Origin: Verrucomicrobiaceae bacterium
GTDB lineage: Bacteria > Verrucomicrobiota > Verrucomicrobiia > Verrucomicrobiales > Verrucomicrobiaceae
NCBI GenBank assembly: GCA_947477755.1
Contig: CANJVS010000002.1
Location: 1-44,234, forward strand
Direction of reading: 5' to 3'
Length of the DNA: 44,234 bases
Made by a program: the position numbers and the translations under genes. Each line of letters begins with the position of its first letter. Position 1 is the stretch's first letter. Shown one piece after another: positions 12,199-43,691 of the stretch. The notes under the pieces are model-generated. The model saw only the letters and a program-made list of their open reading frames with translations, was not told where the DNA came from and ran no database searches.

Positions 12199-12236
12199 AA
12201 CCGGAAAGGAGAAAGCAGAAAGATGAAATCGAATGG
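12199..12236. repeat. Degenerate heptamer tract (R1): ACCGGAA|AGGAGAA|AGCAGAA|AGATGAA|ATCGAAT
   Basis: 7-bp phasing read directly; contains GAAAGCAGAAA shared with other tracts. Confidence 0.6.
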
Positions 12237-21550: not shown

Positions 21551-22768
21551 TCAGGAGTTCTTGAGAAGGGCGTAGGCGTCTGCCACGGCCTGCACGCTGC
21601 TTTGGAAGGAAAAACCATCCAGCAACTGAGGGGACACGGTACGGTTCGCTTCTGGCTGGGCCAGTTTGCAGAGGCAGTCTGCCAACGCGCTGCCATCGCC
21701 AAACGAAAAGGTCTGGTTCGGTGGCTGAACGCCCAGATCTTCCGCACTGCCGCAACGGTCACTGATCACGCACGGCAGTCCGCTCGCCATCGCCTCGTTG
21801 ACCACGAGGCCCCAGGTTTCACCATAGTCGCTTGGCAGCACCAGGCAATCGGCGGCCACATAGGCATCGGTGATTTGTGTTTGGTTCAGGAAGCCGGCGA
21901 AGGAAGCGGAGGGCACTTCTGATCTCTGGTTTCTGACCTCTGACTTCTGACTCTCAGCATCGAAGACGACGTGGCAGGCAGCGCGGAGTTCGGGGCCGAG
22001 TTCGCCGGAGCCAGTGAAGAGCAGATGGAGTTTCGGCAGTCGTCCGCTCGCGATCAAAAGCTGGGCCGCTTTCACTAAATCCATTGGCCGCTTCTTGGGG
22101 ATGAACTTGCCACAGAACAAAACGCAGAACGCATCCTCAGGTATGCCCCACCGCCTTTTAATTTCTGCTTTCTGCTTTTCTATTTCAGCTTTCTGTCTGC
22201 CGAACCTCTCATTGTCCACGCAGTAGGGGGCGGATAGAAGTCGGTCAGCCTTGATGCCATGGCTCTCATAGAGTCTGCGATTGGCCTTTCCGATGCAGAG
22301 AAACTTATCCACGCGGACGAACAGCCAGCCCAGCAGCACGCGCTTCACCCGTTGTTTCCAGAGGGAGGCGGGCGGTGCCAGATCGTTGCTCTCGCCGCGC
22401 AGCCAGACTTTCACTCCGGCTTTGCGCGCCTCATGCACCGCCTGCCAGTAACCTGCCACCTGCCAGCCTTGAATCCACAGGGCTTTCGCTCCGCAGGCAC
22501 GCAGCTTTGCGGCGAGTGGTTCACTGGAACGGCACTTCCAAAACGAAGCGGGGGTGACATCCAGCGGCGTCTTCAAAAACTGGTGGGGATAGCCAGCCAG
22601 CATGTCCAAGTCCCAGGCAAAGTGGGCGCCAAACTCCTTGTCATGACTCACGCGTGTGGCGTGATCGCTCAGGTACCAAACTTCAAACGGCACCCGGCCA
22701 TCCCGCGCCAGTGCCTGCCAGAGCGGCACTTGGTATTGGATGGGGTGGGTGGAGAGGATGATCAGCAT
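21551..22768 (-). CDS. GT4 glycosyltransferase containing two in-frame heptamer-repeat tracts
   Basis: FCGKFIPKKRPMDLVKAAQLL; VLPSDYGETWGLVVNEAMASGLPCVISDRCGSAEDL; low-complexity RQKAEIEKQKAEIK and ESQKSEVRNQRSEV. Confidence 0.9.
   Translation of the reverse strand: MLIILSTHPIQYQVPLWQALARDGRVPFEVWYLSDHATRVSHDKEFGAHFAWDLDMLAGYPHQFLKTPLDVTPASFWKCRSSEPLAAKLRACGAKALWIQGWQVAGYWQAVHEARKAGVKVWLRGESNDLAPPASLWKQRVKRVLLGWLFVRVDKFLCIGKANRRLYESHGIKADRLLSAPYCVDNERFGRQKAEIEKQKAEIKRRWGIPEDAFCVLFCGKFIPKKRPMDLVKAAQLLIASGRLPKLHLLFTGSGELGPELRAACHVVFDAESQKSEVRNQRSEVPSASFAGFLNQTQITDAYVAADCLVLPSDYGETWGLVVNEAMASGLPCVISDRCGSAEDLGVQPPNQTFSFGDGSALADCLCKLAQPEANRTVSPQLLDGFSFQSSVQAVADAYALLKNS
21915..21958. repeat. Heptamer tract R3 (minus strand AGTCAGA|AGTCAGA|GGTCAGA|AACCAGA|GATCAGA|AGTG)
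   Basis: Exact 7-bp phasing over about 6 units, within the GT CDS. Confidence 0.85.
22157..22198. repeat. Heptamer tract R4 (minus strand GACAGAA|AGCTGAA|ATAGAAA|AGCAGAA|AGCAGAA|ATTAAAA)
   Basis: 7-bp phasing over 6 units, within the same GT CDS. Confidence 0.85.
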
Positions 22769-41776: not shown

Positions 41777-41780
41777 GGGC

Positions 41781-41886
41781 GAAATGAGAAATGGGAAAGC
41801 AGAAATGTGAAAGCAGAAAGCAGAAATCTGACAAGAACCACAGAATTGGATTTCCCATTTCTGCTTTCTAATTTCTATTTTTCTTT
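41781..41886. repeat. Paired inverted heptamer arrays, unit R5
   Basis: Plus strand ATGAGAA|ATGGGAA|AGCAGAA|ATGTGAA|AGCAGAA|AGCAGAA|ATCTGAC; minus strand AATAGAA|ATTAGAA|AGCAGAA|ATGGGAA; perfect 12-bp inverted repeat AGAAATGGGAAA (41787-41798)/TTTCCCATTTCT (41851-41862). Confidence 0.9.
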
Positions 41887-42240
41887 GGTGCGGTTGACCA
41901 TGGTGGTCATGATCGCGATGAGTTCGCCAGACTCCCGCTCATGGGGCATGGTCTGCTCAGAAGGGATGCTGCAATCCTCTCTGAGGAGTTCCAACCACAA
42001 CTGCGTTTCGTCGGCTTCTTGAAGTGCTCCGCCGAGCTTGGAGACGAATTCATCATTGGACCTGGCCCTTGAAGTCTCTCGAACATGGGCAGCCACTGAA
42101 GTGCCCGAGCGAAGCATTTGTCGCGCAATGATTCGAACCTCTTCCCGATTCCGTGGCAGCGCGATAAACAACCGAATGCTCTGTGAGGCAAATGCCTTTG
42201 CTCGATCCCGAAACTCTTGTGAAAGGCGTCCTGAATTCAT
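41875..42240 (-). CDS. Four helix bundle protein (23S rRNA intervening-sequence protein / TIGR02436-like)
   Basis: SQEFRDRAKAFASQSIRLFIALPRNREEVRIIARQMLRSGTSVAAHVRETSRARSNDEFVSKLGGALQEADETQLWLELL; stop codon lies inside the R5 right arm; start at MNSGRLSQEF. Confidence 0.88.
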   Translation of the reverse strand: MNSGRLSQEFRDRAKAFASQSIRLFIALPRNREEVRIIARQMLRSGTSVAAHVRETSRARSNDEFVSKLGGALQEADETQLWLELLREDCSIPSEQTMPHERESGELIAIMTTMVNRTKEK

Positions 42241-42248
42241 GTGATTAA

Positions 42249-42342
42249 AATGGAAAAGCTGAAAGCAGAAAACAGAAATGTAAGAGACGGAGGGCTGAAA
42301 TGAATTTCCCATTTCTGCTTTCACATTTCTACTTTTTCTGAG
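42249..42342. repeat. Paired inverted heptamer arrays, unit R6
   Basis: Plus strand ATGGAAA|AGCTGAA|AGCAGAA|AACAGAA|ATGTAAG; minus strand AGTAGAA|ATGTGAA|AGCAGAA|ATGGGAA; 19-bp ATTTCCCATTTCTGCTTTC (42304-42322) identical to 41850-41868. Confidence 0.9.
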
Positions 42343-43654
42343 CCTCCCAGCGCCTGAACTTCCGCCAGATCATGAAGCAGGCGAGCAGCATGGGAGGCAC
42401 TGAGGTGAAGATGTTGAATCCAAGAACTCCTGCGACGCTGGAGAGATCAAAGAGACAAAGGCCTGCGATCTGGGCGGCGATACCGACCGGGATGACGAGG
42501 GTCATGGACTGCACCCAGCCGCGTGCCATGAGCAAACCCCAGGTGATGGTGGAGTAGCCATTCACAATCATGCCCAGCACCGTGAAGCGAAGCTCATTGC
42601 TGAGGTGGCTGTATTGGGGCCCGAGGAGCCAGAGAATCGGAGTTGGAAGCAGGACGGCAAGTCCCAGAATGCCAGTCGCGAAGAGGGCATAGAGAGCACA
42701 CACTTTTCTAAACTGAGCCAGAAGCTGGCGGCGATCTTTGCTGCGTGCAAAACTGGGAATGGCGATCTGAACCAGAGGAGCCCCGGCCAACCCAAAAATG
42801 ACGATCAACCGGCCCAGCGCACCCATATCCGCAACTTGGGCTGAGGCACCAAACAAACTGATGAGCCCCACGCTTAACTGCCCCTGCAGACAGTTGAAAA
42901 TAGTGAAGGGATACATGTGCCGCACCTTCTGCCGGATGTCCGCATCATAGACGCCGGTGGCAGGGATGCCGGGCAACAATATTTGTCCGGATTGCAGCCT
43001 AACTAACAGATAATAAACAAGATTGGAGAGGCAGGCTGCCAGCATCACCCCGATGAAGCAGTAATTGATCGGATAGCTTTCCGGCAGGCTTCCGGACTTG
43101 ATGCCGCCAAACGTGAAAAAAACAGGCAGCAGGCAGGCAGCAGTGAGCGCGAGCCGGGTCACAGCGTTGGCGATCTCCGCGAACAATTGCGGGCGATAGC
43201 GCGAGTGAAGACGATTTACGTTGGCAAGAATTTGAGCGGTGGCCATGGGCCAGGCGATGAGCGCGCCGGCGATTGCAAGGCCGGCGATGCTCCACAAAGG
43301 CGCATTGACTCTAAGCATCAGGATGGTGATCCATGGAAGGGTCACCGCCAGGGCAATGCCGGTCAGCCGTCGCTGGTGACGTCCGACGGCGGCGATTACT
43401 TGGGAGAATTTTAATTGATCCTGCCAGACCTGACCACCAATGGCATTGGTGGCCACACTGATACCTGCATCGGAGAGAAGAACGATCATGGTCAGCATGG
43501 AGCTGGCTACGGTAAACCAGGCGTAGGAGGTCTCACGAGGCAGAGTCCACAGCGCAAGGAATCCGGACATGGCATTGACGCCCATGATGAGCGCCTGTGC
43601 TCCGACCACACCGCTGACGAGAGGCATCCAGCGTCGAACCCATGGTGTGCTCAT
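42329..43654 (-). CDS. Polysaccharide flippase-like (Wzx/MATE-MVF superfamily) membrane protein
   Basis: About 12 hydrophobic helices; N-terminal MPLVSGVVGAQALIMGVNAMSGFLALWTLPRETSYAWFTVASSMLTMIVLLSDAGISVAT typical of polysaccharide biosynthesis proteins. Confidence 0.8.
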   Translation of the reverse strand: MSTPWVRRWMPLVSGVVGAQALIMGVNAMSGFLALWTLPRETSYAWFTVASSMLTMIVLLSDAGISVATNAIGGQVWQDQLKFSQVIAAVGRHQRRLTGIALAVTLPWITILMLRVNAPLWSIAGLAIAGALIAWPMATAQILANVNRLHSRYRPQLFAEIANAVTRLALTAACLLPVFFTFGGIKSGSLPESYPINYCFIGVMLAACLSNLVYYLLVRLQSGQILLPGIPATGVYDADIRQKVRHMYPFTIFNCLQGQLSVGLISLFGASAQVADMGALGRLIVIFGLAGAPLVQIAIPSFARSKDRRQLLAQFRKVCALYALFATGILGLAVLLPTPILWLLGPQYSHLSNELRFTVLGMIVNGYSTITWGLLMARGWVQSMTLVIPVGIAAQIAGLCLFDLSSVAGVLGFNIFTSVPPMLLACFMIWRKFRRWEAQKK

Positions 43655-43691
43655 CAATGATCGATCGATATCCCGTTCCCCTGATCTTACG

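Follow-up and report, generated by a model that had tools for sequence, protein, structure and literature searches.

The window analyzed here, i.e., the whole stretch of 44,234 nucleotides from a Verrucomicrobiaceae bacterium, contains a locus that is probably a copy of a widespread, minimal and selfish cassette resembling the intervening sequences (IVSs) of 23S rRNA, in which an Avd-like ring protein recognizes its own repeat arrays. Such a cassette consists of a single IVP (S23p) gene flanked by arrays of 7- or 8-nt units in mutually inverted orientation; the sequence of these units is particular to the IVP lineage. The arrangement is general among IVP genes of the phylum and is also found in other phyla.

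In the window, the cassette adjoins a gene for a Wzt-type ABC ATPase within a surface-polysaccharide cluster, and no role of the cassette in that pathway is evident. An initial annotation had described a four-helix-bundle gene with a unit of two oppositely oriented heptamer arrays on each side, and its coordinates proved exact (Table 1); the heptamers are of the type GAAANNN. The same was true of a 19-bp direct repeat, ATTTCCCATTTCTGCTTTC, and of the position of two stop codons inside the arrays, namely that of the IVP gene (41875-41877) and that of the neighboring ORF (42329-42331). The latter ORF was named Wzx in that annotation; a Pfam search of it gave no match. Read in the sense of the gene, either side is composed of a purine-rich GAAANNN array followed by an inverted, pyrimidine-rich counterpart, so each side is able to form its own hairpin and the distal arms are able to pair across the gene. 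RNA folding of the whole cassette gave a minimum free energy of -184.5 kcal/mol with a z of -2.6, and the single hairpin units gave z values of -2.6 and -3.6. As in IVSs, the inverted ends form a terminal stem around the ORF in this prediction.

Table 1. Coordinates of the IVP cassette, its parts and the solo arrays in the window
Feature	Position	Strand	Support
Whole cassette; as RNA, predicted outer stem of the paired distal arms, its loop containing the ORF	41777-42342	-	MFE, z
Heptamer array GAAANNN, ~6.5 units; distal 3′ arm, pyrimidine-rich in gene sense	41781-41826	+	
19-bp direct repeat, copy 1; part of hairpin unit	41850-41868		
Heptamer array, opposite orientation, ~4.5 units; holds the stop codon of the IVP gene	41851-41882	-	
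IVP/TIGR02436 four-helix-bundle protein gene, 121 aa; sole ORF of the cassette	41875-42240	-	PF05635, TIGR02436, AF2
Heptamer array, ~4.5 units; directly upstream of the IVP start codon	42247-42278	+	
19-bp direct repeat, copy 2; 454 bp from copy 1	42304-42322		
Heptamer array, ~4.5 units; distal 5′ arm, holds the stop codon of ORF 42329-43657	42305-42336	-	
Solo array, same heptamer family as the cassette; intergenic, without IVP gene	12204-12228	+	
Decayed solo heptamer array inside glycosyltransferase ORF 21551-22768(-)	21918-21952		
Another solo array (GAAAGCA type) in that glycosyltransferase ORF	22162-22193	-	

The 19-mer is embedded in a 40-nt repeat with 88% identity. Its interpretation as a target-site duplication was rejected, as it is part of a larger, array-made hairpin unit and copies elsewhere vary; it is a by-product of the presence of one hairpin unit on each side. 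An exact repeated 19-mer is by itself unremarkable in the window, since others exist there, such as AACGACACATCCTTGAGCG, apparently inside duplicated Wzt-type genes.

The product of the window gene matches both PF05635 (E 5e-14, 52.8 bits) and TIGR02436 (E 2e-19, 70.1 bits) above the respective curated cut-offs of 33.8 and 24. Its AlphaFold2 model, computed as a monomer, contains four helices (pLDDT 95) and has its best PDB fold matches in 2RLD (TM 0.80) and then 2GSC (Xcc0516, TM 0.76), so that the modeled protein is a four-helix bundle like these two; the next match is Avd of the DGR RNP (4DWL/8UB7). The structural link between IVP and Avd was noted earlier (PMC10053308), and Xcc0516 is cited as a homopentameric toroid in PMC4990558. 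No recognizable recombinase or nuclease domain was found in the window protein, which counts against the cassette model. The TIGR02436/PF05635 family is present in 100 of 145 genomes of the phylum, with up to 18 copies per genome, and, to our knowledge, it has no assigned function outside rRNA. The pN/pS values of IVP proteins mostly range from 0.03 to 0.19; the protein is thus under strong purifying selection.

For a wider comparison, IVP genes were gathered by protein similarity alone, which yielded 140 distinct genes with both flanks. In a flank test, each upstream flank was compared with the reverse-complemented downstream flank, and by the best ungapped match (score ≥14) 119 of the 140 genes had inverted matching flanks, compared with 8 of 140 when flanks were mispaired between different loci of similar GC. 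About 15% of the sampled IVP loci lack clear inverted arrays, which also counts against the cassette model. A second test searched for tandem periods without an assumed sequence and was calibrated against 219 control genes, which come from these loci but lie more than 1 kb away. In this set, which comes mostly from draft genomes of one phylum and was scored with a thresholded detector that misses decayed arrays, strict period-7 arrays occurred upstream, downstream and on both sides of 43, 47 and 26 of the 140 IVP genes, versus 7, 8 and 2 of the 219 controls. The corresponding numbers for period 8 were 16, 18 and 9 versus 6, 2 and 0, and other periods (4-6 and 9-13) were at or near zero in both sets, with at most 4. 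All 67 elements with clear two-sided arrays had the same period on both sides (7 in 51 elements, 8 in 16, mixed in none). The arrays have a median length of 35 nt, typically 4-5 units, and lie at median distances of 14 nt from the start codon and 16 nt from the stop codon. Cassettes between co-directional neighbors were in the sense orientation in 86 cases and antisense in 9.

Other phyla were sampled via plasmids, whose loci may not represent chromosomes. All 15 plasmid IVP homologs inspected, which come from Cyanobacteriota, Chloroflexota, Bacteroidota, Spirochaetota and Bacillota, have inverted period-7 arrays on both sides, each with a unit of its own, albeit weak in one locus (L150) and short in two (L154 and L160). 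The array-IVP-array plan was thereby found in at least six bacterial phyla. In the initial annotation, homologs elsewhere without repeat association had been named as evidence that would speak against its reading; a search for them revealed instead that the association is general (119/140 and 15/15). On cyanobacterial plasmids, heptamers occur elsewhere too, and 39 of the 57 arrays counted lie less than 300 bp from an IVP gene, i.e., in ~15% of the sequence. A phage search returned two weak, unannotated matches.

Local base composition does not produce such arrays. In 40 windows simulated with an order-3 Markov model, no period-7 array reached a score of 14 (maximum 11), versus two scoring ≥14 in the real window (41781-41831 and 21918-21952); for periods 5, 6 and 8-11 there was none. 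The exact pattern (GAAANNN)3GAAA occurs eight times in the 3.48-Mb MAG, six of them at the cassette locus, with a further copy at 12204 and another on contig 77, and its control has no occurrence; since the MAG is 53% complete, such genome-wide counts are lower bounds. Another survey covered 792 kb of a different genome (G080), taken regardless of IVP genes, and detected 23 period-7 and 6 period-8 arrays but none of periods 5, 6 or 9-11. Six of these 29 arrays lie less than 400 bp from the four IVP genes and 18 of the 23 period-7 arrays are away from IVP genes, so that solo arrays outnumber IVP loci in the surveyed stretch, a further point against the cassette model. An inverted partner is present for arrays at IVP genes, whereas most solo arrays have none.

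With regard to the location of solo arrays, many of those of period 7 on two contigs of G080 (C1 and C2, L192-L231) seem to overlap long ORFs instead of intergenic DNA, and their units (TCAGGAG, GGAGGAC) are common to the IVP cassettes of this genome. In the window, alignment of the glycosyltransferase ORF 21551-22768 to its relatives revealed ~15 extra residues at the first array (21918-21952). This stretch is common to the window protein and that of G004 (71% identical) and is missing in more distant homologs; solo arrays can thus become part of a coding sequence with the reading frame kept.

Comparison of sequences between loci shows that the gene and its cognate array recur jointly at different sites and are inherited and transferred as a unit. 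The more alike two IVP proteins are, the more alike are their arrays (Mantel r 0.40, with 0 of 1000 permutations as high), the unit sequence being similar in most IVP pairs above ~65% identity and unrelated below 45%. Among pairs of ≥65% identity at different sites, defined as having different neighbors on both sides, the array unit is common to 47 and not to 21, while for pairs of <45% identity the numbers are 52 and 3376. The 21 similar pairs with unrelated arrays, which are counted against the model, imply that recognition is either not strict or fast-evolving. The unit GATGAAG is found in both a verrucomicrobial locus (L016) and a chloroflexotal plasmid locus (L148) with IVP proteins 58% identical, and arrays are also common across phyla between Verrucomicrobiota (L022-L028) and Cyanobacteriota (L149). 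In several pairs, such as L151/L153 and L024/L027, synonymous sites are saturated (dS >1) and the array unit is kept.

Insertion of the cassette as a unit into an intergenic gap is seen in Nostoc sp. C052. Its plasmid pC052_B has an empty junction (...TTCTAG-ATT-ATG...) with a 3-bp gap between two genes, and exactly in this gap plasmid pC052_D carries a TCAGGAG array, an IVP gene and the inverted array; identity in the flanks is 91% and 98%, and the alignment coordinates give a net insertion of ~418 bp. The suggestion that the locus is an inserted non-autonomous cassette is thus strongly supported by these filled and empty alleles, together with the general association and the recurrence of gene and cognate array at different sites. 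On the other hand, the initial annotation had expected an empty site with one repeat copy, whereas the Nostoc site has no array copy and at most short apparent microhomology. There, the alignments of the two flanks have 10 nt in common at a TTCT...ATT motif similar to the array unit, an overlap that fits duplication and microhomology alike. Further along the same operon, pC052_A has another cassette with TAATTCG arrays, and this site is occupied by ~200 bp of different sequence in pC052_B, in pC052_D and in two further Nostoc strains. In the genus of the window, a cassette occupies the gap between the DUF485 and actP genes in 3 of ~33 genomes; empty sites exist there, with gap sequences too diverged for placement of the junction. 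The cluster at the window's own site is too variable among relatives for such a comparison, and its closest homolog (L014) has a contig end inside the array. Three genomes (loci L185, L188 and L189) have a one-sided TTCGTCA-type array in the DUF485-actP gap without an IVP gene, and these arrays are possible remnants of lost cassettes.

The closest relatives by protein and plan are the S23p-encoding 23S IVSs of Leptospira and Coxiella, which share with the cassettes the protein family, an element size of ~430 nt, inverted ends that pair into a long stem and leave the ORF in its loop, and the sense orientation. The Coxiella IVS has an S23p ORF, a 28-bp terminal stem, RNase III excision and, ahead of S23p, tandem GACAGAT heptamers whose copy number varies between strains, as in the cassettes (PMC4990558). 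Its authors regarded S23p as probably not expressed there, which counts against the cassette model, and described the ORF as decaying, unlike the protein here, which is under purifying selection (PMC4990558). In contrast to 23S IVSs, the cassettes lie between protein-coding genes and both of their arms are tandem 7/8-mer arrays. The gene of the window cassette is located between protein genes and an Rfam search of the window gave no match; lacking the defining rRNA location, the cassette is not classified among the IVSs. REPtrons are comprised of a RAYT Y1 transposase with flanking REP sequences. Like the cassettes, they have a small gene bracketed by short inverted repeats as well as solo repeats elsewhere in the genome, but the cassette has no Y1/HUH transposase (its sole ORF belongs to PF05635), its arms are tandem heptamer arrays instead of single palindromes, and the unit sequence is particular to each cassette. 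Avd of diversity-generating retroelements has the same fold (4DWL, 8UB7), although the cassettes have no linked reverse transcriptase and many IVP host genomes have no RVT_1, including the window's 53%-complete MAG, in which none was found.

That the IVP protein acts on the arrays, the other suggestion of the initial annotation, is indirectly supported by its modeled fold and by the pattern of the repeats: the fold is that of an Avd-like RNA-binding scaffold, the period is fixed while the sequence is free, the unit is lineage-specific, arrays span 4-5 units, and the period is the same on both sides. We infer that the IVP protein may be an Avd-like, oligomeric, nucleic-acid-binding ring, the subunits of which would bind successive units of the cognate array; arrays of mostly 4-5 units would suit a pentamer such as Xcc0516. 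In the transcript, the inverted arrays would pair into a long stem closing a loop that contains the ORF. RNase III could excise this structure as in 23S IVSs, and its removal would make insertion into operons tolerable. By analogy to the RNase III precedent of the Coxiella IVS (PMC4990558), the RNA stem and the sense bias would fit such excision. Movement at the DNA level would proceed via host functions or another partner, guided by array hairpins or microhomology, and solo arrays in the genome may be footprints or independently spread arms.

Several other readings of the locus were weighed against the selfish cassette. The resemblance to RAYT/REP (a gene, inverted ends and dispersed solo copies of the same heptamer) suggests a REPtron-like DNA element, whose hairpin ends would be read in single-stranded DNA and in which the IVP protein would be an accessory, a Y1 (TnpA/RAYT-type) transposase in trans moving both cassette and solo arrays. 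The array units do form hairpins, and Y1 transposases are present in 102 of 145 genomes of the phylum; however, IVP-positive genomes without a Y1 match, several of them nearly complete, were found (G060, G063, G071, G078, G118 and G154), no fixed end sequence or tetranucleotide was observed across elements, and this reading is considered unlikely. It is very unlikely that the IVP protein has a reverse transcriptase as its partner, in the manner of Avd in DGRs, and that insertion occurs through an RNA intermediate: of 145 genomes from the phylum, only 49 gave an RVT_1 match, which is missing from IVP-rich, complete or near-complete ones (G048, G054, G072, G148 and G171). The fold match to Avd in the DGR RNP (8UB7, 4DWL), the IVS-like RNA stem and the 86:9 strand bias argue for this retro-mobility, although the bias is also expected from selection. 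As the reverse transcriptase and the Y1 transposase are each missing in some IVP-bearing genomes, neither is generally required in the host chromosome.

The abundance of solo arrays in G080, their occurrence inside ORFs, including the glycosyltransferase gene of the window, and differences in array length between strains would also be explained if heptamer arrays arose and spread alone by slippage and recombination and IVP genes merely accumulated inside them. This reading is already weakened by the Nostoc filled/empty pair, in which the clean empty site has no array, and is decidedly improbable given that most solo arrays have no inverted partner, that array sequence follows the IVP lineage across sites and phyla, and that the period never differs between the two flanks. 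Another view is that the gene and its arrays are a host regulatory module, retained because it controls the operon in which it lies (polysaccharide, defense or transport), with changes in copy number as a phase switch. Cassettes often lie within operons, among them some with restriction, DISARM and CRISPR genes; the presence of 23S_rRNA_IVP genes in cas loci has been reported previously (PMC3936711), and array copy number varies between Planktothrix strains. Nevertheless, the sites are highly diverse and presence is patchy (e.g., 3 of ~33 genomes of one genus at DUF485-actP), neighboring ORFs stay intact when the array upstream of the IVP start changes, and a regulatory role appears quite unlikely.

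If the selfish cassette is the correct reading, the rule of a gene within inverted tandem arrays of fixed period and element-specific sequence would give the family a candidate nucleic-acid partner, and the 23S rRNA IVS would become a particular landing site within a far broader class of elements. A bolder generalization, which we consider possible rather than probable, is that IVP rings specifically bind 7-/8-nt tandem units and that array-IVP-array elements are a pan-bacterial, transposase-less selfish class and the source of many heptameric repeats, among them the ones found in Xanthomonas, in filamentous cyanobacteria and in Beggiatoaceae. For Xanthomonas and Nostoc, repeated heptamers (GGGAATC and GGGGA(C/T)T) have been reported; in Xanthomonas they are intergenic tandem heptamers, often of 4-5 units, with ~70 convergent inverted pairs per genome (PMC4692102). 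The heptamers of Beggiatoaceae (TAACTGA), cyanobacteria and Bacteroidetes were described as patchy across phyla, with no mechanism evident in that description (PMC4679880), and the cassette class would offer an origin for such repeats. Like the arms of the cassettes, the Xanthomonas/Nostoc heptamers, the Calothrix STRRs and the Beggiatoaceae TAACTGA repeats are intergenic tandem heptamers; in the descriptions given in PMC4692102 and PMC4679880, those of Xanthomonas/Nostoc and Beggiatoaceae appear without a linked IVP gene. Their link to IVP genes is proposed here on the basis of a test that covered plasmids, not those chromosomes. A search of the open-access literature found no published link between TIGR02436/PF05635 and tandem repeats, with prior art elsewhere possible.

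Some individual plasmid loci have additional features. In L155, a Nostoc plasmid locus, more than 30 GCGACTT units form a very long array downstream of the IVP gene. In L152 (Chlorohelix), a hairpin unit of ~110 bp is near-perfectly repeated in direct orientation on both sides of the IVP gene, resembling the repeat with 454-bp spacing in the window, and recombination between the two copies would leave a solo unit. Other IVP cassettes were observed inside restriction, DISARM and cas operons. In the plasmids of L152 and L154 (Gloeocapsa), which belong to two phyla, the IVP cassette is located between DUF1156 and Swt1-HEPN genes, and this conserved position could reflect a host role instead.
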